Origin: Manis javanica
Lineage: Eukaryota; Chordata; Mammalia; Pholidota; Manidae
DNA: 64,000 bases
NCBI RefSeq assembly: GCF_040802235.1
Contig: NC_133157.1
Location: forward strand, 91,684,001-91,748,000
Direction: 5' to 3'
Shown piece after piece: positions 3,377-64,000 of the stretch; the first letter of the stretch is position 1; each line of letters starts with the position of its first letter. Made by a program: the position numbers and the translations under genes. The notes under the pieces were generated by a model, which saw only the letters and a list, made by a program, of their open reading frames with translations, made no database searches and was not told the DNA's origin.

Positions 3377-3484
3377 CCTGCCCTGGAGTCTGGGACAACA
3401 TCACATGCTGGCCCCCAGCAGACCTAAGCGAGACCGTCACAGTGCCCTGTCCAAAAGTGTTCAGCAATTTCTACAGCAAACCAA
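3377..3484 (+). CDS. VIPR2: VIPR2 exon 3 (extracellular domain)
   Basis: 108 bp following a polypyrimidine tract and TCCTAG. It encodes [20 protein letters not shown] and continues through a [14 protein letters not shown] end. This is the Cys-rich hormone-binding domain with WDN, CW and P-C-P signatures and an N-glycosylation sequon (NIT). Phase runs from 2 to 1 nt, as in human. The donor is CCAA|GTACTG, with A instead of the usual G at -1, so it is a weak site. Human has Ala at the last full codon (SKA), this copy Pro. Confidence 0.9.
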
Positions 3485-7568: not shown

Positions 7569-7666
7569 GAAACATAAGCAAGAACTGCACAAGTGATGGG
7601 TGGTCGGAGATGTTTCTAGATTTCATAGATGCATGCGGCTTCCATGACCCTGAAGATGAGAGCAAG
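7569..7666 (+). CDS. VIPR2: VIPR2 exon 4 (extracellular domain)
   Basis: 98 bp between TTCTTCTAG and GTAAGG. It encodes RNISKNCTSDGWSEMFLDFI then DACGFHDPEDESK. It contains the conserved C-T-S-D-G-W core and DACG of the class B N-domain. Compared with human it has Met for Thr and Leu for Pro in the SETFPDF segment. Frame and splice sites are intact. Confidence 0.92.
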
Positions 7667-26853: not shown

Positions 26854-26951
26854 ATCATGTTTTACGTGCTGGTGAAGGCCACATACACCCTGAGCTACAG
26901 CGTCTCTCTGATTTCCCTTACAACCGGAAGTATAATTCTCTGCCTCTTCAG
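26854..26951 (+). CDS. VIPR2: VIPR2 exon 5 (TM1)
   Basis: 98 bp between TTCTTTGTAG and CAG|GTAAGT. It encodes IMFYVLVKATYTLSYSVSLI followed by SLTTGSIILCLF, the first membrane helix. Human has YTLGYS where this copy has YTLSYS, so a Gly widely conserved in class B TM1 is Ser here. No frame damage. Confidence 0.92.
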
Positions 26952-27480: not shown

Positions 27481-28799
27481 ACTGTTTTCCCTGTATTGAG
27501 GCTAGAGTTCCACCCAGTGAGCCTTGGTCTCCTTGGTAACTAATGACTGGCTACACTGCAGTTGTTCAGGGGTACAAGTAGAGGCTCTAACTAGAAAAAG
27601 CTAATGCACATATTAGGAATAAGTCCAAATCTTAAGCATCACTAAATAAAATGGGTCGGTTTTAATCACCACATGTAATTTCTTGCTCAAATATAGTTCA
27701 AATGTTGGCAGTATTCAGATAAAATCAGTGATATAACAATGGAATATTTTTAAAAACTAACACAAACTGTTAGGATACCCATACTTGGAAGTAAAATGGA
27801 TAAGGCAAGACTGATTTAGAATATAGGTGGAAATCCAGCAAATATAATCAAATCATACTTTTCATTTTTCAGACATTTCAACTATATCAAGTAGTTGGTA
27901 ATTCTCAGAAAGAGTAAATCAGTACCCTTCATCCAGAACTGTACTTTGAAAAATGTGGGGAAGATCTATCATATTCTAGTTCTATAAAAAATGCTGGTAC
28001 AACATTAATATTTGTTCTGTTATCCTCTGTATTTTACTATGTATTTTTAAATGTTCAAATTATTAAAGATAAAAAAGAAAGGAAAATCATAGGTGGTGAG
28101 GTGGAACAGGATAACCTGAAGTAGAAAAATTTTAGCTTATTTTTAAACAGCTCCTATAGTGAACAATCCATATTCTTGACACTGGCAGTTTTCCTCATTC
28201 TGTACTTGGTGACATTTAATTAGCCAACTTCGGGGCATTTTGGAATTGCACTTAATCCATGGACATGATCCTTTAAGAGAATCTCAAATGGTTTTCTGAG
28301 TATCAAAAGTCATTAGTCACTTGCCAGTGATACTTCTTAGTTAGAAAAGGACACGTCTGCTGGCTCAACATGTAACGGTTGCTGGAAGCGTCACCCACAG
28401 CCCAGAGCTGGTGTACGGTTCTCAGCTGTGCCTTCTTCTTGGCCATAGAAATGCTTCCTGCCTCCAGGGGTCAGATGTGTCTGTCCATCTGATGCCCCTT
28501 CCTGGGAGAGTGGTGAGGAAGGTGACTCTAAAATCTGTATTATAAACATAACATCTCCACCATCTCCATAATCACAGCCAGGACACGGGATTCTTTGCTG
28601 GCATTGAACATTTATTGCCCGGAACAGCTGCAGAAGCTAGGAACTGTTGCCAAGGAATGGACAGCTTCCATCCTCGACGAAGTACCGAAGCACTTCAGGC
28701 TGGGGTAACACACATGACCTAGCTTGGGCCCCACAGCTGTCGTCCTGGAGGGCATATGGGGTCCAGGTCTAGGCAAAGCCGCTCTAGTCCCCACAAACC

Positions 28800-34849: not shown

Positions 34850-34991
34850 GAGGCTGCACTGTACGCGCAACCACATCCACCTGAACCTGTTCCTCTCCTT
34901 CATCCTGAGAGCCGTCTCGGTGCTGGTCAAGGATGATGTTCTGTACTCCAGCTCCGGCAGGCAGCACTGCCCTGACCAACAGTCCTCCTGA
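34850..34991 (+). CDS. VIPR2: VIPR2 exon 6 (TM2, ECL1) with terminal TGA
   Basis: 142 bp, the human length, after CCCCGCCAG. It encodes [20 protein letters not shown] and continues to [22 protein letters not shown], covering ICL1, TM2 and ECL1. The final codon, expected to be Trp (TGG) before VGCKL of exon 7, reads TGA at 34989-34991, directly before the donor GTAAGG. A protein stopping here would keep only TM1-TM2 and could not signal. The LHCTRNYIH motif has His for Tyr. Confidence 0.9.
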
Positions 34992-39664: not shown

Positions 39665-39812
39665 GTTGGCTGCAAGCTGAGTCTGGTGCTCTTCCAGTAC
39701 TGCGTCATGTCCAACTTCTACTGGCTGCTGGCCGAGGGGCTGCACCTGCATGCCCTCCTGGTGGCCATGTTCCCCGGCTGCTGCTTCACAGCCTACCTCC
39801 TGATCGGATGGG
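39665..39812 (+). CDS. VIPR2: VIPR2 exon 7 (TM3, ICL2, start of TM4)
   Basis: 148 bp between GACCCTGCAG and GTAAGC. It encodes VGCKLSLVLFQYCVMSNFYW, then LLAEGLHLHALLVAMFPGCC and FTAYLLIGW. The conserved TM3 Cys (GCK) is present. The VEGLYLH segment reads AEGLHLH. The ICL2 segment is one codon shorter than human and has lost the two Arg residues (human PPRRCF, here PGCCF). Frame is preserved. Confidence 0.92.
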
Positions 39813-40361: not shown

Positions 40362-40422
40362 GTGTCCCCACCATCTGCACGGGGGCGTGGGCCGCCACCA
40401 GGCTCTCCTTAGAGGACACGGG
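40362..40422 (+). CDS. VIPR2: VIPR2 exon 8 (TM4 end, ECL2 start)
   Basis: 61 bp between TTTCTGCAG and GTGAGT. With the last base of exon 7 it encodes GVPTICTGAWAATRLSLEDT, ending with the first two bases of a Gly codon, as in human. The next exon should start by completing that codon and continue with Cys-Trp-Asp; no such exon follows. Confidence 0.9.
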
Positions 40423-41737
40423 GTGAGTGCCACGCCCATGCCTCTGCCTTTGGAGTGGGAGGGGCTGCACGGGTCCTCCGGCCTCATCTGCATCTGCAGG
40501 CACAGCCAGGTCAGCAGGAAATGAGCGGCTCTGAGCGCTGTGGGGAGGGCGGTCCCTGGGTCGGAGTGTTTGGAGAGAAGGGATCCAGCAAGCCTTGCTG
40601 CAGAGCGGGAAGCAGGATAAACCAGGCAGATTTAATCACAGGAATCAGGGTCGTAGGTGAGGGGAGCAGTGTTCACACAGGGAGCCGGGCAAAACACACG
40701 CAGTGTTTGCTGAGCCAAGGGTGAGGGTGAAGGGTCAAAGGTGGGCTGAAAAGGTTGGAGGGCAGCTCTGAATGGTTCTCCACCTCTGCCTGGGTCCTAC
40801 GTGCAGAACACAGTGCAGACAGGGTGCAGAGCAGGTGGCGGCCCCACCCAGGCACCAAGTGTGCCCACTGTGAATACTGTGAGAGGGGCTGTTGGGGCTG
40901 GAAGTCACCCAGTACCAGTACCGATCCACCCAGAATGGGGACTTGGGTGATCACGGTGTGCTCATGTGGTGTGCTGCTGTGTGCAGCCGTTGGGGCCGAC
41001 TGTGACGGTTCTTCCAGCCTTAGCCTGGCTCACACTGGCAGGTGCAGAGAGCCTCAGCTGGAAGGGTTGGGGTTGGGGTCAGGGTCATGGTTCGGGTCAG
41101 GGTCAGGGTTAAGGTTCGGGTCAGGATCACATTTGGGTTGGGGTCAGGGTTAGGATCAGGGTTAGGGTTAGGGTTGGGGTTAGGATCAGGGTTTGGGTCA
41201 GGGTTAGGGTTGCAGTTAGGTTCCCAAGGGCTTCACATCCTATTAGCAACACCAGCTCAAGCTGGGGTCGAGGGTAGGTCTCTTTCCTGCTTGGGAGGGG
41301 CTGCTGTCCCCCACTGCTGGATTTGACAACAGAGGGAATGTTGGGGACCCTCCAGCCCTTTAGGCAGCTAAAGGTGCCTCCAGGACAGACGTTTCTAGCT
41401 GTGCTGGCCTCTTCTGCTGCACAGACATCTTAAATGTCACTCCATATATACATTCAGACCTTGGAAGTGAGGGAACCGGGGTTCAGGAGAACGTCCCTGG
41501 ATCTGCTGTTAGCCACAGCAAGTGGTAGCTGTGCCGGCTGCCCGGGTATGGCTGCCGTGTGCTTTGGCGTCCCCGCTACCCGAGCCATCATGGCGAGAAC
41601 ACAGGGAATCAATCTCGACAGGGCAGCCACTCTCTGAGAGGTGCAGCCACTCAAACGGAGCTGAGCAGCAGGCCTCCCAGCCAACCCCCCTCCCAGGCTG
41701 GGGGGCTCCACACGACATGCTGTTTCTTTTTGTGCAG
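40423..41737 (+). other. VIPR2 exon 8-to-10 interval lacking exon 9
   Basis: This 1315-bp interval should contain two introns flanking a 70-bp exon 9 that encodes a CWDTND-like ECL2 and the first half of TM5. Reading the plus strand I find no TGCTGGGAC-like start and no matching frame. It contains the telomere-like G-rich tract at 41063-41220. The absence is by eye; a profile search could reveal a very diverged remnant. Confidence 0.7.
41063..41220 (+). repeat. Interstitial telomere-like (TTAGGG-type) tract
   Basis: 158 bp of GGGTTA/GGGTCA/GGGTTG hexamer variants, with consecutive perfect TTAGGG units near 41158-41180. The G-rich strand is the plus strand and could form G-quadruplexes. It lies between VIPR2 exons 8 and 10, where exon 9 is missing. 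Confidence 0.9.
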
Positions 41738-41829
41738 GTCAACTTTGTCCTTTTTGTTAGTATTATACGAATTTTACTGCAGAAGTTGACGTCCCCAGGT
41801 GTCGGTGGCAATGACCAGTCACAGTATAA
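41738..41829 (+). CDS. VIPR2: VIPR2 exon 10 (TM5 end, ICL3)
   Basis: 92 bp between TTTTGTGCAG and AA|GTGAGT. It encodes VNFVLFVSIIRILLQKLTSP then GVGGNDQSQY. It starts in phase 0, as human exon 10 does, which requires the 70-bp exon 9 upstream. Very close to human (Ile to Val in VLFISII, Asp to Gly after SP). Confidence 0.92.
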
Positions 41830-44756: not shown

Positions 44757-44886
44757 GAGGCTGACCAAGTCCACGCTGCTGCTCATCCCGCTGTTTGGAG
44801 TCCACTATGTGGTGTTTGTGGTGTTTCCCATCGGCATCTCCTCCACATACCAGATACTGCTCGAATTGTGCATCGGATCATTTCAG
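44757..44886 (+). CDS. VIPR2: VIPR2 exon 11 (TM6, ECL3)
   Basis: 130 bp between TTGGGGCAG and GTGCGT. It encodes RLTKSTLLLIPLFGVHYVVF and continues to VFPIGISSTYQILLELCIGSFQ. The RLAKSTLLLIPLFG motif of class B TM6 is kept except Ala to Thr. Frame and length match human. Confidence 0.93.
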
Positions 44887-44952: not shown

Positions 44953-44994
44953 GGCCCGGTGGTGGCGGTGCTCTACTGCTTCCTCAACAGCGAA
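44953..44994 (+). CDS. VIPR2: VIPR2 exon 12 (TM7)
   Basis: 42 bp between TGCCCACAG and GTAAGT, encoding GPVVAVLYCFLNSE. This is the class B TM7 VAxLYCFxNxEV motif. Human has GLVVAV; this copy has Pro for Leu, which puts a proline in the helix next to the conserved Gly. Confidence 0.92.
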
Positions 44995-45921: not shown

Positions 45922-46095
45922 GTGCAGGGCGAGCTGAGAAGGAAATGGCGAGGCCTGTGCCAGCGCCAGCCCACCTGCCGAGACCGCAGGCTCCATGGCT
46001 CATCCTCCTGGAGGAACAGCTCAGAGAGCGCCCTGCCATGCCCCCGGGGCTCCCGCGCCCCATCCTTCCTGCAGACAGAGACCTCGGTCATCTAG
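45922..46095 (+). CDS. VIPR2: VIPR2 exon 13 (cytoplasmic tail and stop)
   Basis: After CTGACCCCCAG this terminal coding exon encodes VQGELRRKWRGLCQRQPTCR and ends SRAPSFLQTETSVI with TAG at 46093-46095. It forms helix 8 and the regulatory tail. The end QTETSVI matches human; the middle of the tail is diverged but open. The 3'UTR follows, with its end not defined. Confidence 0.93.
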   Translation: MQGELRRKWRGLCQRQPTCRDRRLHGSSSWRNSSESALPCPRGSRAPSFLQTETSVI

Positions 46096-54626: not shown

Positions 54627-54638
54627 CCACTAACTTTT
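54627..54638 (+). repeat. Left target-site duplication of the L1
   Basis: CCACTAACTTTT, adjoining the element's poly(A) end. It matches the copy at 62950-62961 exactly. The terminal T bases merge with the T run, so true length is 10-12 bp. Confidence 0.9.
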
Positions 54639-54652
54639 TTTTTTTTTTTTTT

Positions 54653-56818
54653 GAGAGGGCATCTCTCATATTTATTGATCAAATGGTTGTTAACAACAAT
54701 AAAAATCAGTATAGGGGGGTCAACGCTCAATGTACAATCATTAATCCATCTCAAGCCTAATTCTCGTCAGTCTCCAATCTTCTGAAGCATAACGAACAAG
54801 TTCTTACATGGTGAACGAATTCTTACATAGTGAATAAATTCTTACATGGTGAACAGTACAAGGGCAGTCATCACAGAAACTTTCGGTTTTGATCATGCAA
54901 TATGACCTATAAACAATCAGGTCAAATATGAATATTCATTTGATTTTTGTACTTAATTTATATGTTGATCCCACATTTCTCCTATTATTATTATTATTTT
55001 TATTTTTAATAAAATGCTGAAGTGGTAGGTAGATGCAAGATAAAGGTAGAAAACATAGTTTAGTGCTGTAAGAAGGCAAATGTAGATGATCAGATGATCA
55101 GGTGTGTGCCTATGGACTAAGTATTAATCCAGGCTAGACAAGGGCAGCAAGACATCCACGGATGCAGAAGATTTCTCTCAAAGCAGGGGGGGTGAGGTTC
55201 TGAGCCTCACCTCTGTTGATCCCCAAATTCTCACCTGATGGCCCCCCTGCGACTGTGCTTGTCTTAGGTTGTTCCTCCCTTGAGGAATCTTACCCGTCTC
55301 TGGCTAACCAGTCATCTTCTGGGGCCATACAGGGAAATGTAAAGTTGGTAAGTGAGAGAGAAGCCATATTGTTTGCAAAGGTTAGCTTTTTACTTCTTTG
55401 CAGATTTATGCCCTGTGGCTTCTATGCCCAGCACTTGTCTCGAGGTATCTTTACCACCTGGAGGAATTATGATGCTTGGTAAATTCGATATGAGGTACAA
55501 ATTCTATTTAAGGGTTGTAATTAGGAAGGAAGAAGAAAAGCTATAGATGTAGCATATGAAGGAAACTTGGGAGGATTGATTATTTCTTTGACATATCTTC
55601 TTGTAGAGTACCTTAAGTATGTATAGGTTTTAAACTACTAACTAATTTGTACACACATATTAACATAATAGGAATACGGTGACATAAACAAAGCAAATCT
55701 ATAATTACCATCCATCTCCAGTGAAGACAAGACCTAGGCATTTTTGAAAATTTATCTATGATATGATGGATATTGTCCAACTGTACTTGAACCATCAGAC
55801 AAATTAAAGCAGCCCATTTCTGGGATCTGTTCACATCCCATATGTTCTTTTAACCATAGATAGTCTATAGTCATGAGATTTTGGAGTGCTACACCTTGCA
55901 CCCCTCCCAACTCCTGGTTGAGTTCCAACAGTACAGATCCGGTCAATTCGTTGTCTCACTGTATGCACATGCCAGCCTAGACATCTCCCTCCTCATTCTT
56001 ATGGCAAGTCCAGGAGACGGTGGGCTGGATGCAGCCACAACCGCAGCATCGTCCGGATCCCTGTGGAGGCTTTTTGATGATCATCCCCCGGCACAGGTCC
56101 TCCACAGAGTGCTGATGCCAGAAGCTCCTCCTCATATGGTATCTTAGTTCATTTTCTGGGTATCCAAGCTAGGCCTTGATCTTCTGCATAGAAACAAACA
56201 GACCCTTTGCCCACACTTTGACATGCCCTCTATACCACTGTGCAGAACTCATTGGAGGTCAGCACACAGTAACTGCTTTTTTTTTTTTTTTTTAATTAAG
56301 AGAAAGGAATATTATCAGAAAAGAGTACCTCCATAGCTGATCATCTGACACCCTTTAAGTGATCAACATTAAGGATATTTAAAGCATGCGTTGATCTTTG
56401 ATTTACCAATAGTTTTATCCTGTTAAGGAGTAATCCCCCTTTTCTTTCTTTCTTTCTTTTCTTTTTTTTTTTTTTTAATTTTTAATCTACACTTACATGA
56501 AGAATACTAAGTTTACTATGCTCTCCCCTATATCAGGTCCCCCCTAACAACCACATTACGGTTACTGTCCATCAGCTTAGCAAAATGTTGTAGAGTCACT
56601 ACTTGTCCTCTCTGTGTTGTGCAGCCCACCCTCCCCTTTCTCCCTCCCCCACCATGCATGCTAATCTTAATACCCCCCTTCTTCTTCCCCCCCCTTATCC
56701 CTCCCTGCCCACCCATCCTCCCCAGTTCCTTTCCCTTTGGTACCTGTTAGTCCATTTTTGGGTTCTGTAATTCCACTGCTGTTTTGTTCCTTCAGTTTTT
56801 CCTTTGTTCCTATACTCC
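54653..56818 (-). other. L1 3'UTR
   Basis: A 2.2-kb 3'UTR, much longer than in human L1. Just after ORF2 (56818-56500) is the G-rich polypurine tract typical of L1s. An A-rich/GAAA run follows at about 56445-56480, and another A run at 56277-56295. A further 1.6 kb without coding potential leads to the tail. The A runs suggest that the distal part was added to an older, shorter L1 end. Confidence 0.8.
54671..54676 (-). terminator. L1 polyadenylation signal
   Basis: AATAAA on the minus strand, about 18 bp before the poly(A) tail. Being in sense orientation within DYNC2I1, it could also cause some premature polyadenylation of that gene. Confidence 0.8.
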
Positions 56819-59800
56819 TCAGATGAGTGAAATCATTTGGTATTTCTCTTTCTCCGCTTGGCTTATTTCGCTGAGCATAATACTCTCCAGCTCCATCCAT
56901 GTTGCTGCAAATGGTTGGATTTTTCCACTTCTTATGGCTGAGTAGTATTCCTTTGTGTATATGTACCACATCTTCTTTATCCATTCATCTACCGATGGAC
57001 ATTTAGGTTGCTTCCAATTCTTGGCTATTGTAAATAGTGCTGCGATAAACATAGGAGTGCATCTGTCTTTCTCAAACTTGATTGCTGCGTTCTTAGGGTA
57101 AATTCCTAGGAGTGGAATTCCTGGGTCAAATGGTAGGTCTGTTTTGAGCATTTTGATGCACCTCCATACTGCTTTCCACAATGGTTGAACTAATTTACAT
57201 TCCCACCAGCAGTGTAGGAGGGTTCCCCTTTCTCCACAGCCTCGCCAACATTTGTTGTTGTTTGTCTTTTGGTTGGCAGCTATCCTTACTGGTGTGAGGT
57301 GATACCTCATTGTAGTTTTAATTTGCATTTCTCTGATAATTAGCGATGTGGAGCATGTTTTCATGTGTCTCTTGGCCATCTGTATTTCTTTTTTGGAGAA
57401 CTGTCTGTTCAGTTCCTCTGCCCATTTTTTAATTGGGTTATTTGTTTTTTGTTTGTTGAGGTGTGTGAGCTCTTTATATATTCTGGACGTCAAGCCTTTA
57501 TCGGATCTGTCATTTTCAAATATATTCTCCCATACTGTAGGGTTCCTTTTTGTTCTATTGATGGTGTCTTTCGCTGTACAGAAGCTTTTCAGCTTGATAT
57601 AGTCCCACTTGCTCATTTTTGCTGTTGTTTTCCTTGCCCGGGGAGATATGTTCAAGAAGAGATCACTCATGTTTATGTCTAAGAGGTTTTTGCCTATGTT
57701 TTTTTCCAAGAGTTTAATGGTTTCATGACTTACATTCAGGTCTTTGATCCATTTTGAGTTTACCTTTGTATATGGGGTTAGACAATGGTCCAGTTTCATT
57801 CTCCTACATGTAGCTGTCCAGTTTTGCCAGCACCATCTGTTGAAGAGACTGTCATTTTGCCATTGTATGTCCATGGCTCCTTTATCAAATATTAATTGAC
57901 CATATATGTTTGGGTTAATTTCTGGGGTCTCTAATCTGTTCCACTGGTCTGTGGCTCTGTTCTTGTGCCAGTACCAAATTGTCTTGATTACTATGGCTTT
58001 GTAGTAGAGCTTGAAGTTGGGGAGTGAGATCCCCCCTACTTTATTCTTCTTTTTCAGGATTGCTTTGGCTATTCGGGGTCTTTGGTGTTTCCATATGAAT
58101 TTTTGAATTATTTGTTCCAATTCCTTGAAGAATGTTGCTGGTAATTTGAGAGGGATTGCATCAAATCTGTATATTGCTTTGGGCAGGATGGCCATTTTGA
58201 CGATATTAATTCTTCCTAGCCACGAGCATGGGATGATTTTCCATCTGTTAGTGTCCCCTTTAATTTCTCTTAAGAGTGACTTGTAGTTTTCAGAGTATAA
58301 GTCTTTCACTTCTTTGGTTAGGTTTATTCCTAGGTATTTTATTCTTTTTGATGCAATGGTGAATGGAATTGTTTTCCTGATTTCTCTTTCTATTGATTCG
58401 TTGTTAGTGTATAGGAAAGCTACAGATTTCTGTGTGTTAATTTTGTATCCTGCAACTTTGCTGTATTCCGATATCAGTTCTAGTAGTTTTGGAGTGGAGT
58501 CTTTAGGGTTTTTTATGTACAGTATCATATCATCTGTAAATAGTGACAGTTTAACTTCTTCTTTACCAATCTGGATTCCTTGTATTTCTTTGTTTTGTCT
58601 GATTGCCGTGGCTAGGACCTCCAGTACTATGTTAAATAACAGTGGGGAGAGTGGGCATCCCTGTCTGGTTCCCGATCTCAGTGGAAATGCTTTCAGCTTC
58701 TCGCTGTTCAGTATAATGCTGGCTGTGGGTTTATCATATATGGCCTTTATTATGTTGAGGTACTTGCCCTCTATTCCCATTTTGCTGAGAGTTTTTATCA
58801 TGAATGGATGTTGAATTTTGTCAAATGCTTTTTCAGCATCTATGGAGATGATCATGTGGTTTTTGTCTTTCTTTTTGTTGATGTGGTGGATGATGTTGAT
58901 GGATTTTCGAATGTTGTACCATCCTTGCATCCCTGGGATGAACCCCACTTGGTCATGGTGTATGATCCTTTTGATATACTGTTGAATTCTGTTTGCTAAT
59001 ATTTTATTGAGTATTTTTGCATCTACATTCATCAGGGATATTGGTCTGTAATTTTCTTTTTTGGTGGGGTCTTTGCCTGGTTTTGGTATTAGGGTGATGT
59101 TGGCCTCATAGAATGAGTTTGGGAGTATTCCCTCTTCTTCTATTTTGTGGAACACTTTAAGGAGAATGGGTATTATGTCTTCTCTGTGTGTCTGATAAAA
59201 TTCCGAGGTAAATCCGTCCGGCCCCGGGGTTTTGTTCTTGGGTAGTTTTTTGATTACTGTTTCAATTTCTTTGCTTGTAATTGGTTTGTTTAACTTTTGT
59301 GTTTCTTCCTTGGTCAGTCTTGGGAGGTTGTATTTTTCTAGGAAGTTGTCCATTTCTTCTAGGTTTTCCAGCTTGTTGGCGTATAGGTTTTCATAGTAGT
59401 CTTTAATAATTCTTTGTATTTCTGTGGAGTCTGTCGTGATTTTTCCATTCTCATTTCTGATTATGTTGATTTGTGTTGACTCTCTTTTTCTCTTAATAAG
59501 TTGGGCTAGAGGCTTATCTATTTTGTTTATTTTCTCAAAGAACCAGCTCTTGGTTTCGTTGATTTTTGCTAGTGTTTTATTCTTCTCAATTTTGTTTATT
59601 TCTTCTCTGATCTTTATTGTGTCCCTCCTTCTGCTGACTTTAGGCCTCCTTTGTTCTTCTTTTTCCAGTTTTAATAATTGTGATGTTAGACTATTCATTT
59701 GGGATTGTTCTTCCTTCTTCAAGTGTGCCTGGATTGCTATATACTTTCCTCTTAAGACTGCTTTCGCTGCATCCCACAGAAGTTGGGGCTTAGTGTTGTT

Positions 59801-60661
59801 GTTGTCATTTGTTTCTATATATTCCTTGATCTCTATTTTGATTTGTTCATTGATCCATTGATTATTTAGTAGCATGTTGTTAAGCCTCCATGTGTTTGTG
59901 AGCCTTTTTGTTTTCTTTGTAGAATTTATTTCTACTTTCATACCTTTGTGGTCTGAAAAATTGCTTGGTAGAATTTCAATATTTTGGAATTTACTGAGGC
60001 TCTTTCTGTGAGCTAGTATGTGGTCTATTCTGGAGAATGTTCCATGTGCACTTGAGAAGAATGTATATCCTGTTGCTTTTGGATGTAGAGTTCTATAGAT
60101 GTCTATTAGGTCCATCTGTTCTAGTGTGTTGTTCAGTGCCTGTGTGTCTTTACTTATTTTCTGCCCGGTGGATCTATCCTTTGGGGTGAGTGGTGTGTTG
60201 AAGTCTCCTACAATGAATGCATTGCAGTCTATTTCCCTCTTTAGTTCTGTTAGTATTTGCTTCACATATGCTGGTGCTCCTGTATTGGGTGCATATATAT
60301 TTAGAATGGTTATATCCTCTTGTTGGACTGAGCCCTTTATCATTATGTAGTGGCCTTCTTTATCTCTTGTTACTTTCCTTGTTTTGAAGTCTATTTTGTC
60401 TGATATTAGTACTGCAACCCCTGCTTTCTTCTCACTGTTGTTTGCCTGAAATATGTTTTTCCATCCCTTGACTTTTAGTCTATGCTTATCTTTGGGTTTA
60501 AGGTGAGTTTCTTGTAAGCAGCATATAGATGGGTCTTGCTTTTTTATCCATTCTATTACTCTATGTCTTTTGATTGGTGCATTAAGTCCATTTACATTTA
60601 GGGTGACTATTGAGAGATATGTACTTATTGCCATTGCAGGCTTTAGATTCGTGGTTACCAA
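56819..60661 (-). CDS. L1 ORF2 protein (endonuclease-reverse transcriptase, 1280 aa)
   Basis: The enzyme of target-primed reverse transcription. Residues 1-250 form the APE-like endonuclease, with Asn22 in LNVNGLN and Glu51 in QETHL matching the human catalytic N14 and E43, then GDFNTPL and [10 protein letters not shown]. The reverse transcriptase follows, with [42 protein letters not shown] and [13 protein letters not shown]. The active-site motif is F708-T-D710-D711, where mammalian L1s usually have FADD. The C-terminal Cys-rich motif [19 protein letters not shown] is complete. Length is close to human ORF2p (1275 aa), with no stop or frameshift. An internal Met at residue 10 is an alternative start. 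Whether the FTDD change is tolerated is not known to me. Confidence 0.96.
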
Positions 60662-60829
60662 AGGTTCAAGGTTAGCTTCTTTAGTATCTTACTGCCTAAC
60701 TTAGCTCGCTTATTGAGCTGTTGTATACACTGTCTGGAGATTCTTTTCTTCTCTCCCTTCTTATTCCTCCTCCTCCATTCTTCATATGTTGTGTGTTTTG
60801 TTCTGTGCTCTTTTTAGGGGTGCTCCCAT

Positions 60830-61753
60830 CTAGAGCAGTCCCTGTAGGATGCCCTGTAGAGGTGGTTTGTGGGAAGCAAATTCCCTCAGCTTTTGCTTGT
60901 CTGGGAATTGTTTAATCCCACCATCATATTTAAATGATAGTCGTGCTGGATACAGTATCCTTGGTTCAAGGCCCTTCTGTTTCATTGCATTAAGTATATC
61001 ATGCCATTCTCTTCTGGCCTGTAGGGTTTCTGTTGAGAAGTCTGATGTTAGCCTGATTGGTTTTCCTTTATAGGTGACCTTTTTCTCTCTAGCTGCCTTT
61101 AAAACTCTTTCCTTGTCCTTGATCCTTGCCATTTTAATTACTATGTGTCTTGGTGTTGTCCTCCTTGGATCCTTTCTGTTGGGGGTTCTGTGTAATTCCA
61201 TGGTCTGTTCGATTATTTCCTCCCCCAGTTTGGGGAAGTTTTCAGCAATTATTTCTTCAAAGACACTTTCTATCCCTTTTCCTCTTTCTTCCTCTTCTGG
61301 TATCCCTATAATACGAATGTTATTCCTTTTGTATTGGTCATATATTTCTCTTAGTGTTGTTTCATTCCTGGAGATCCTTTTATCTCTCTCTATGTCAGCT
61401 TCTATACGTTCCTGTTCTCTGGCTTCTATTCCTTCAATGGCCTCTTGCATCTTATCCATTCTGCTTATAAATCCTTCCAGGGATTGTTTCACTTCTGTGA
61501 TCTCTTTCCTGACATCTGTGATCTCCTTCCGGACTTCATCCCACTGCTCTTGCATTTTTCTCTGCATCTCATCCCACTGCTCTTGCATTTTTCTCTGCAT
61601 CTCATCCCATTGCTCTTGCATTTTTCTCTGCATCTCTGTCAGCATGTTCATGATTTTTATTTTGAATTCTTTTTCAGGAAGACTAGTTAGGTCTGTCTCC
61701 TTCTCAGGTGTTGTCTCTGTGATCTTTGTCTGCCTGTAGTTTTGTCTTTTCAT
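60830..61753 (-). CDS. L1 ORF1 protein (307 aa)
   Basis: An RNA-binding chaperone that coats L1 RNA in the cytoplasmic ribonucleoprotein. Residues 1-40 form a charged N-terminus. Residues 41-73 are three exact copies of MQRKMQEQWDE, followed by VRKEITDVRKEITEV, together a coiled coil for trimerisation. An RRM begins near NNIRIIGIPEEEERGKGIE, and the C-terminal domain has RHIVIKMARIKDKERVL, YKGKPIRLTSDFSTETLQAR and RILYPARLSFKYDGGIKQF. The frame is uninterrupted and somewhat shorter than human ORF1p (338 aa). It is followed by a 168-bp spacer before ORF2. Confidence 0.95.
   Translation of the reverse strand: MKRQNYRQTKITETTPEKETDLTSLPEKEFKIKIMNMLTEMQRKMQEQWDEMQRKMQEQWDEMQRKMQEQWDEVRKEITDVRKEITEVKQSLEGFISRMDKMQEAIEGIEAREQERIEADIERDKRISRNETTLREIYDQYKRNNIRIIGIPEEEERGKGIESVFEEIIAENFPKLGEEIIEQTMELHRTPNRKDPRRTTPRHIVIKMARIKDKERVLKAAREKKVTYKGKPIRLTSDFSTETLQARREWHDILNAMKQKGLEPRILYPARLSFKYDGGIKQFPDKQKLREFASHKPPLQGILQGLL
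61535..61633 (-). repeat. 33-bp triplication in L1 ORF1 coiled coil
   Basis: Three adjacent 33-bp units (61535-61567, 61568-61600, 61601-61633) differ by about one base each and encode MQRKMQEQWDE three times. Eleven residues equal one and a half heptads, so copy number alters coiled-coil register and length. Near identity implies recent expansion. Confidence 0.95.
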
Positions 61754-62237
61754 GGTGATAGAGATAGTTTGCAGAGCTGGTACAAGTGACCGCTGGAAGA
61801 GCTTCCCTTCTTGTTGGTTTGTAGCCTTTTCCTGGGAGACTAGCGACCTCTAGTAGCTTGTTCTGGGCAGCTGTGCGCAGACAGGGCTTCTGCTTCCTGC
61901 CTAGTTGCTTTGGGGTTTATCTCCGCTGTTGCTGTGGGCTTGGCCTGGCTGGGGCTGTTCCTCCAAAATGGTGGAGCCCCGTTGGAAGGGGAGCGGCCAG
62001 GAGGCTATTTATCTCCGTAAGGGGCCTCTGTGCTCCCTGCTGCCCAGTGGGTTAGAGTGCCCAGAGATCCCCAGATTCCCTGCCTCTGGTCTAAGTGACC
62101 TGTCCTGCCCCTTTAAGACTTCCAAAAAGCACTCTCCAAACCAAAACAACAACAGCAACAATGAGAGAGGGAACAGAAAGAAAGAAAAAAAAAAAAAAAA
62201 GGAAAAAACAAGCGATTTTTTTTTTTTTTTTTTTTTT

Positions 62238-62690
62238 GTCCTCAGGTGCCGGTCCCAGGCACCCGCTCACTGGTCCTGCTGCCCTGTCTCCCTAGCACCA
62301 GGGTCCCTGTCCTTTCAAGGCTTCCAAAAAGCACCCACCCACCGGTCCCGCAGGGAAGGAACGCTCGATAGTCTTTGTCCTCAGGCACTGGTCCCAGGCA
62401 CCCGCTCACCAGTCCCGCCGCCCTGCCTCCCTAGCACCGGGGTCCCTGTCCCTTTTAGGCTTCCAAAAAGCGCTCGCCAAAAAGAGAAAAAAAAAAAAGG
62501 GGAAAAACGCGCGATTTCCTCCGTCCTCAGGCACTGGTCTCAGGCACCTTCCCGCCGGTCCCGCAGGGAGAAACGCGGGATATTCTTTGTCCTCAGGCGC
62601 CGTTCCCAGGCACCTGCTCACCGGTCCCACCACCCTGCCTCCCTAGCAACGGGGGCCCATCCCTTTAAGGCTTCCAAAAAGCACTCGCCA
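62238..62690 (-). repeat. Tandem monomers in L1 5'UTR
   Basis: On the plus strand the block beginning GTCCTCAGG recurs at 62238, 62377, 62523 and 62589, and the block CTTCCAAAAAGC recurs near 62119, 62321, 62460 and 62671. Units carry GGTCCCAGGCACC and CCTGCCTCCCTAGCA. Spacing is irregular (about 66, 140 and 200 bp), so copies are partly deleted or nested. This resembles the monomer-built promoters of rodent L1s. Confidence 0.8.
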
Positions 62691-62928
62691 AAAAAAAAAC
62701 CGCTCCGGTTTCTTTCCACCCGCCGGGAGCCGGGGGGAGGGGCGCTCGGGTCCCGCCGGGCCGGGGCTTGTATCTTACCCGCTTTGCAAGGCGCTGGGTT
62801 CTTGCAGGTGTGGATGTGGTCTGGATGTTGTCCTGTGTCCTGTGGTCTCTATTTTAGGAAGATTTTTCTTTGTTATATTTTCATAGCTCTATGTGTTTTT
62901 GGGAGGAGATTTCCACTGCTCTACTCAC

Positions 62929-62940
62929 GCCGCCATCCTG
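62929..62940 (-). promoter_or_regulatory. YY1-like site at L1 start
   Basis: The minus strand reads CAGGATGGCGGC within the first 25 bp of the element, close to the YY1 core (AAGATGGCGGC). In human L1 a YY1 site in the same place sets the transcription start. The A-to-G change in the core may weaken it. Confidence 0.6.
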
Positions 62941-62949
62941 GCTCCGCCT

Positions 62950-62961
62950 CCACTAACTTTT
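62950..62961 (+). repeat. Right target-site duplication of the L1
   Basis: CCACTAACTTTT immediately outside the L1 5' end and followed by AAG, reconstructing a TTTT/AA nick site. One or two leading C bases could belong to the element. Confidence 0.9.
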
Positions 62962-64000
62962 AAGTTGGAGACAATGCCTCCATTTTTAGGAATGTTCTTT
63001 GGATTGCACAATTATCTCAAGGTCTTGGGGGTGCTAATCCTACTCACAGTGATGTCTCCTCACACTGGGCATTTCGGGGTCTTCTTTCTGAGCTGCTTCC
63101 TGTGGGCACCCTGTGTTTTGAGGTGAGCCAGCCGGGGTCACAGGCCTGGGACCAGCTCGTGGATCACACCCACGCCAGAGCTCAGATTTCAGGTCTCCTG
63201 TGCTCCTGGCTCTGCTGGTCTGGGGGTGGGCTCTCTGAGTCTCTCTCCCTGAGAGGCAGTGAATCTGGAGTCCTGGTCAGAGTCTCATTCTTGTTCCCTG
63301 TCCCAGACAAGCCTGACGCAGCAGTGGGGCTGCAGGGCTTGAGCTCAACACAGCCCCTGACAGCCCAGTCCCACAGCACCTGAAAGCTCACACACTAAAC
63401 AAAGTTCCATCCTTGTTCTGGCATGTTCCTCTGTTCCTTTTAAAAGCCATACTTAGCATACTGAAGGCTTTCACATTGCACAGGGATGTGTCTGAACAGA
63501 AAGCCCACAGCGGCTCCTTCTTCCACTCTGCCCTCCTCAGAGGTCAGGACCCTGGCCACTCTGTGCATACACTTCTCATACCACATTTAGGACGCGAATG
63601 TCACCTACCAGCTGAGGACTCCCAGGTCCGTGCCTCGCAGGAGATCCCTGCTACAGAGCCACTGCCTCCTGGTCATGGCCATGCACAGCACACACTCTGC
63701 CCCTATGCCCCATTTTGTTCATCTCATGCACAGTACCCAGTAGCTGAGCCAGACACCAGGGCCAGGACTGCACTCATCTTCCTTATGGACCCTGTAACAG
63801 CTGCCCAGCTGGTCTCCTTCCCTTGCAACCCCACACTATTGCCAACTTGACAGTTCTAAGTAAGACACACTGCCTTAAAATCCTACAATGGCTCCCTACC
63901 ACCTCCAGAGAATCGTCTAAATGCCTCAGCACTGCAAATACCCCAGGGTCTGGCCACAGACCTGCACAGTCTCTTTCTCAAAGGCAGACCCACCAGTTCC
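62962..64000 (-). other. DYNC2I1 intron to window end
   Basis: About 1 kb right of the L1 without any recognised DYNC2I1 exon, RNA gene or clear repeat. The sequence 63590-63860 is unique and non-coding by appearance. Confidence 0.55.

Follow-up and report, generated by a model that had tools for sequence, protein, structure and literature searches.

The question raised by this locus is whether an in-frame stop codon in VIPR2, the gene of the VPAC2 receptor, means that the Malayan pangolin has lost that receptor. The stretch of DNA that we analysed, referred to below as the window, is 64 kb long and corresponds to C2:91684001-91748000 of a 2.56-Gb genome (2,559,957,944 bases in 63 contigs); the available text of PMC11825179 gives the Malayan pangolin genome as 2.56 Gb with 19 chromosome-scale pseudomolecules and 0.96% SINE. 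Our answer, to which we assign a probability of about 94%, is that the VIPR2 sequence of the window is an unprocessed pseudogene which arose by segmental duplication.

As the preliminary description had stated, an in-frame TGA occupies positions 34989-34991 of the plus strand, where it closes exon 6 of VIPR2 as its final codon, directly 5' of a good GTAAGG donor (exons are numbered throughout as in the human gene). The exon itself, at 34850-34991 on the same strand, is 142 bp long, has a cag acceptor and a gtaagg donor, and is in frame with its neighbours, and its translation up to the TGA finds human VPAC2 chains as the best match, without gaps and with 41 of 47 residues (87.2%) the same by tblastn. 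The claim that this exon has the human length and phase can thus be kept for the 142 bp and the frame, the human length being seen through the gap-free protein match. In a PDB alignment, human VPAC2 (chain 7wbj_R) reads PDQPSSWVGCK across the stop site, with Trp199 as the expected residue, which agrees with the tryptophan codon that had been predicted to precede the VGCKL of exon 7; this codon, TGG followed by GTAAGG, is present in all five of the other VIPR2 copies that we found in the same genome. Because the base in question is G in each of these five, the single G-to-A change at the last base of exon 6, proposed earlier from the window alone, must have arisen in the window copy. The same change might in addition make the donor weaker, as had been suggested. 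Exon 6 of the window differs from that of its closest relative, the sister copy described below, at one of 142 bases, namely the stop-codon base, and the TGA is therefore no chance stop produced by a mis-set frame. Truncation would come after TM2, also as foreseen, and on general grounds such a product should be non-functional.

The preliminary description had further taken the window gene to be the animal's VIPR2, an identification that the rest of the genome does not sustain, as the gene is a decayed segmental duplicate and a copy open through exons 3-13 lies 1.61 Mb away. This sister copy is located upstream of the window on the same contig, at ~90.06-90.12 Mb, and runs in the same direction. 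Alignment of 60 kb from it (C2:90068500-90128499) with the window accounts for nearly all window sequence outside a LINE-1 element: the left part of the duplication, shared with C2:90.07-90.13 Mb, covers positions 1-54638 on the plus strand, and a further ~1 kb aligns at 62950-64000. Across the eight blocks longer than 500 bp there are 1691 mismatches in 55,136 aligned bases, a divergence of 3.07%. Segmental duplications are defined as exceeding 1 kb and 90% identity and as not being mobile elements, and what the two places share is 55 kb at 96.9% identity. With a substitution rate of 2.2e-9 per site per year, the copies would have diverged roughly 7 million years ago, a figure to be read as an order of magnitude only.

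The sister gene has what the window copy lacks. Its exon 6 ends in TGG followed by GTAAGG, its exon 9 is flanked by a tag acceptor and a gtaagt donor, and 386 codons extend without a stop from exon 3 through exon 13, which closes with the normal ETSVI, and the splice sites of these exons are GT/AG. The best PDB match of the translation is human VPAC2 at 730 bits, the next receptor being PAC1 at 442.5 bits, and both the hormone-receptor and the 7tm_2 domain of Pfam are present in it. In a genome-wide protein search, in which 96 of 110 candidates were scored, exon 2 turned up for the sister (C2:90057376) and for the window copy (C2:91672276), in both cases with 78% identity to human; neither copy yielded an exon 1 match. 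These observations bear directly on the reading that the species has lost VIPR2, the TGA having inactivated its only copy. Loss would accord with the missing exon 1 match of the sister and with the fact that the TGA and the exon 9 deletion described below each destroy the window copy, but it would imply that the genome holds no intact VIPR2, and the sister, on the same contig, is open in exons 3-13, has its exon 2 match, and has a coding sequence that looks constrained, all of which makes loss extremely improbable. Being open in exons 3-13 and constrained, the sister is probably the working VIPR2 receptor gene, and we infer that it supplies the receptor and that the window copy makes none.

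A human VPAC2 probe recovered exons 3, 4, 5, 6, 7, 8, 10, 11, 12 and 13 from the 64-kb window, in order and on the plus strand. The reading frame and the AG acceptor are preserved in each of the ten, and the nine internal ones also have their GT donors, so that the introns and splice sites of the parent are retained, as is characteristic of an unprocessed pseudogene. Exon 3 (3377-3484) carries Gly87Arg and ends in A (CAA/gtactg) where the sister has G (CAG/gtactg); exon 4 (7569-7666; Pro103Leu) and exon 5 (26854-26951; Gly133Ser) have intact frames and splice sites; exon 7 (39665-39812; Arg239Cys), exon 8 (40362-40422), exon 11 (44757-44886; Ala345Val) and exon 12 (44953-44994; Leu369Pro) are open; exon 10 (41738-41829) is identical to that of the sister; and exon 13 (45922-46095) has the usual ending, the ETSVI stop, in its own frame. 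Position 3484 is the second site at which the window has A for the sister's G at the last base of an exon, and the gtactg donor that follows departs from the usual consensus; no outgroup copy spans this site, and human Gly87 points to G as the ancestral base. Neither a tRNA nor an Rfam family was found in the 64-kb window, and a comparison with 14 repeat consensus sequences produced no hit at 1e-3, which is a weak negative.

Missing from this series is exon 9, which in the sister is 70 bp long and encodes the second extracellular loop (ECL2) and TM5. In the window-sister alignment it lies within a piece of ~640 bp that is deleted from the window copy, with the junction at 41623-41636 on the plus strand. 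Its presence was compared in the sister and in the copies on contigs C6, C8 and C19 that are described further on: it is kept in the sister, C6 and C19, and the C8 copy is listed with exon 9 in the genome protein search. In the 1.3-kb interval between exons 8 and 10 of the window, the best protein score for exon 9 was 30, where 200 shuffled sequences averaged 28 and reached 43; elsewhere in the window the best plus-strand score was 38, with no convincing match, tblastn on both strands likewise gave none that was convincing, and exon 9 of the window copy was absent among the matches listed by the genome protein search (96 of 110 candidates scored), which did include that exon for the sister, C6, C8 and C19. 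The shuffle-level score, together with the ~640-bp alignment gap, led us to reject the idea that the exon is present but unrecognizably diverged. The intron after exon 8 also contains a degenerate, telomere-like (AGGGTT)n array of ~25 copies at 41063-41211, ~400 bp before the deletion.

If exon 8 is spliced to exon 10, the frame changes and a stop follows, and the exon 9 deletion is a second lesion, independent of the first. A complete seven-helix frame is thus absent from the window copy, which has a stop at residue 199, no exon 9 and a frameshifted exon 8-10 join, and both disabling lesions, the TGA and the deletion, are absent from the open parent, whose exons 3-13 run free of stops and for which the same genome gives a match to exon 2. 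The consequences for earlier expectations are twofold: six coding exons, and not the seven that had been counted, remain downstream of the TGA, and the routes by which a receptor might have been rescued are closed. An A-to-I edited UGA is in principle readable as UGG, and such editing, an alternative donor, or a TGG in other individuals had been suggested as ways around the stop; because exon 9 is also gone and the exon 8-10 join shifts the frame, none of them could restore a receptor.

The window copy also carries a LINE-1 insertion of ~8.3 kb on the minus strand at 54638-62949, which is flanked by a 12-bp target duplication, CCACTAACTTTT, and is absent from the sister and from the C6 and C19 copies. 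On the minus strand it has two long open frames, of 1280 and 307 codons, in which the domains of L1 ORF1 and of reverse transcriptase are found. The element shares 98% identity with 5.5 kb of C12 (C12:114000-119500), and tandem repeats with a spacing of 66 to 146 bp occupy 62213-62690 on its 5' side, with similar sequence on C16. The insertion helps to weigh the proposal that the second copy is an assembly artefact, in the form of an unmerged haplotype or a misjoin, with the TGA as a base error. Duplicated blocks are indeed a usual site of assembly faults, but a haplotype duplicate should differ by no more than alleles do, and usual mammalian allelic divergence is lower than the 3.07% that separates these copies over 55 kb; they lie, moreover, 1.61 Mb apart on one contig, and both the LINE-1 with its target duplication and the ~640-bp deletion are specific to one of them. 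We regard an artefact as most improbable.

The two copies differ at 29 of the codons compared. When the human residue is taken as ancestral, nine amino-acid-changing codons fall on the window side (V67L, G68S, G87R, P103L, G133S, W199stop, R239C, A345V and L369P) and one on the sister side (S408W, by two nucleotides), codon 238 not being polarised; nine against one gives a two-sided binomial p of 0.021. The neutral expectation per lineage is 12.6 amino-acid changes from the plain background and 14.3 when CpG context is allowed for. The 9-10 changes of the window have a P of 0.28 (up to 10) under the former and of 0.09 (up to 9) or 0.15 (up to 10) under the latter, and are compatible with neutral drift, in a comparison of low power; the two nucleotides of the sister fall below the neutral expectation (P 0.0003 plain, 0.00007 CpG-aware), and its coding sequence looks to be under constraint. 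The window copy has thus gained more amino-acid changes than its parent at a pace compatible with neutrality, as a pseudogene does. Polarised by the outgroup copies alone, the window has 3 silent and 3 changing differences and the sister 7 silent and 2 changing, with 15 unresolved.

A different yardstick would point the other way. The pairwise NG86 dN/dS is 0.17 with a dS of 0.075, well above the 3.07% background, and this dS taken at face value predicts ~31 amino-acid replacements in each lineage (0.075/2 x 824, calculated by hand), so that 9-10 would mean constraint on the window copy too. CpG sites, which in the noncoding part diverge by 22% as against 2.1% elsewhere, explain most of the high dS, the CpG-aware count of silent changes being 18 seen for 14.3 expected (P = 0.20). 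For exons 6-13 alone, polarised by C6/C19 or human, the window has 4 changing and 3 silent differences and the sister 1 and 7 (Fisher p = 0.12), a contrast that leaves the two lineages unseparated. The window copy may therefore have been under constraint for some time, and its inactivation may be recent, given that the frame and splice dinucleotides are kept in all ten exons.

The same figures bear on the suggestion that the window copy is transcribed and yields either a truncated N-terminal product, consisting of the extracellular domain with TM1-2, or a non-coding RNA acting on the sister. As this would require, no stop interrupts exons 3-6 before the TGA, and their splice sites are GT/AG; against it, the changes at conserved residues, two of them at exon ends, are compatible with neutral drift, and the position of the TGA fits the standard setting for nonsense-mediated decay (NMD), that of a stop far upstream of later exon junctions. 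For a transcribed copy with such an upstream stop NMD is likely, and we hold a functional transcript to be very unlikely.

The pseudogene and its sister are not the only VIPR2 sequences in the genome. An 801-bp piece around exon 6 has at least eight genome matches, the match counts of this search being lower bounds, and six of these are at VIPR2 loci, the two others, of 82 bp, being in genes of related receptors. The exon 6 copy of the sister, at C2:90104858 on the plus strand, is 99% identical; those at C8:28204, C6:29178 and C12:124964, which belong to VIPR2 pieces 28, 29 and 125 kb from the respective contig starts, are 89-90% identical; and that at C19:141768486, 90% identical, lies 29 kb short of the contig end, where the sequence closes with TTAGGG repeats. 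Contig C19, at 142 Mb, is out of size order among the ten contig sizes seen and is possibly the X. All four contig-end copies have TGG at the stop codon and lack the same 2 bp midway through exon 6, and further indels occur in exons 7, 10, 12 and 13 of the C6 and C19 copies; we used the contig-end copies, which are partial, broken and more diverged, as outgroups. Their match to the window starts at ~28300 in the C8 and C19 copies and at 28482 in the C6 copy, and exons 3, 4 and 5 were not among the matches listed at any of the four places in the genome protein search, which did place one exon 2 match at C2:226981875, 5 kb from the far end of that contig. Two stretches upstream of the VIPR2 copy on C12 gave only LINE-1-like matches, and the locus at C2:10.25 Mb gave no VIPR2 match. 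Neither VIPR2 nor segmental duplication is mentioned in the available main text of PMC11825179, and the open-access titles and abstracts searched contain no report of VIPR2 pseudogenes, loss or subtelomeric copies.

The duplication, the decay of one copy and the open state of the other are facts of sequence, given by the copies and their lesions. The history behind them most likely began when a segment no shorter than 55 kb (~67 kb should exon 2 belong to it) was copied in direct orientation within one chromosome. The window copy then drifted: the TGG that closes exon 6 turned to TGA, exon 9 went with the loss of ~640 bp, several conserved residues changed and a LINE-1 jumped in. The sister stayed open and constrained. 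Placed in a decayed duplicate, the TGA looks like ordinary duplicate decay and not receptor loss, and the high interest first attached to it presupposed a single-copy gene. Recognizing this averts a false call of gene loss, and it is of practical relevance because automated annotation, or the mapping of short reads, could collapse the pair into one gene and present VIPR2 as broken or chimeric. It remains mildly interesting that VIPR2 pieces have spread in this genome to the ends of chromosomes.

With subtelomeric duplicons, as generally known, the locus shares the occurrence of VIPR2 pieces near the ends of C8, C6, C12, C19 and C2, but unlike them the window copy has an interstitial position, at 91.7 of 227 Mb. 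It is conceivable, if doubtful, that VIPR2 was repeatedly copied to chromosome ends and within C2 and that the window copy was formerly a second VPAC2 receptor, until the stop and the loss of exon 9 put an end to it, such that dosage in the circadian clock and the gut would have changed in evolution. In humans, VIPR2 microduplications at 7q36.3 have been linked to schizophrenia, according to the available parts of PMC8339898 and PMC10174236; the duplicated gene is the same, but there it is a rare human variant and here a decayed duplicate in one assembly. Compared with VIPR2 itself, which encodes VPAC2, a class B1 receptor for VIP and PACAP, the window copy has the same exon order and phases but is without exon 9, stops at Trp199 and has changed conserved residues. 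The closest likeness is to the unprocessed pseudogenes of mammalian segmental duplications, from which it shows no substantial difference: the kept introns, the parent on the same chromosome, the ~97% identity, the stop with an exon deletion, and the excess of amino-acid changes over the parent all match.
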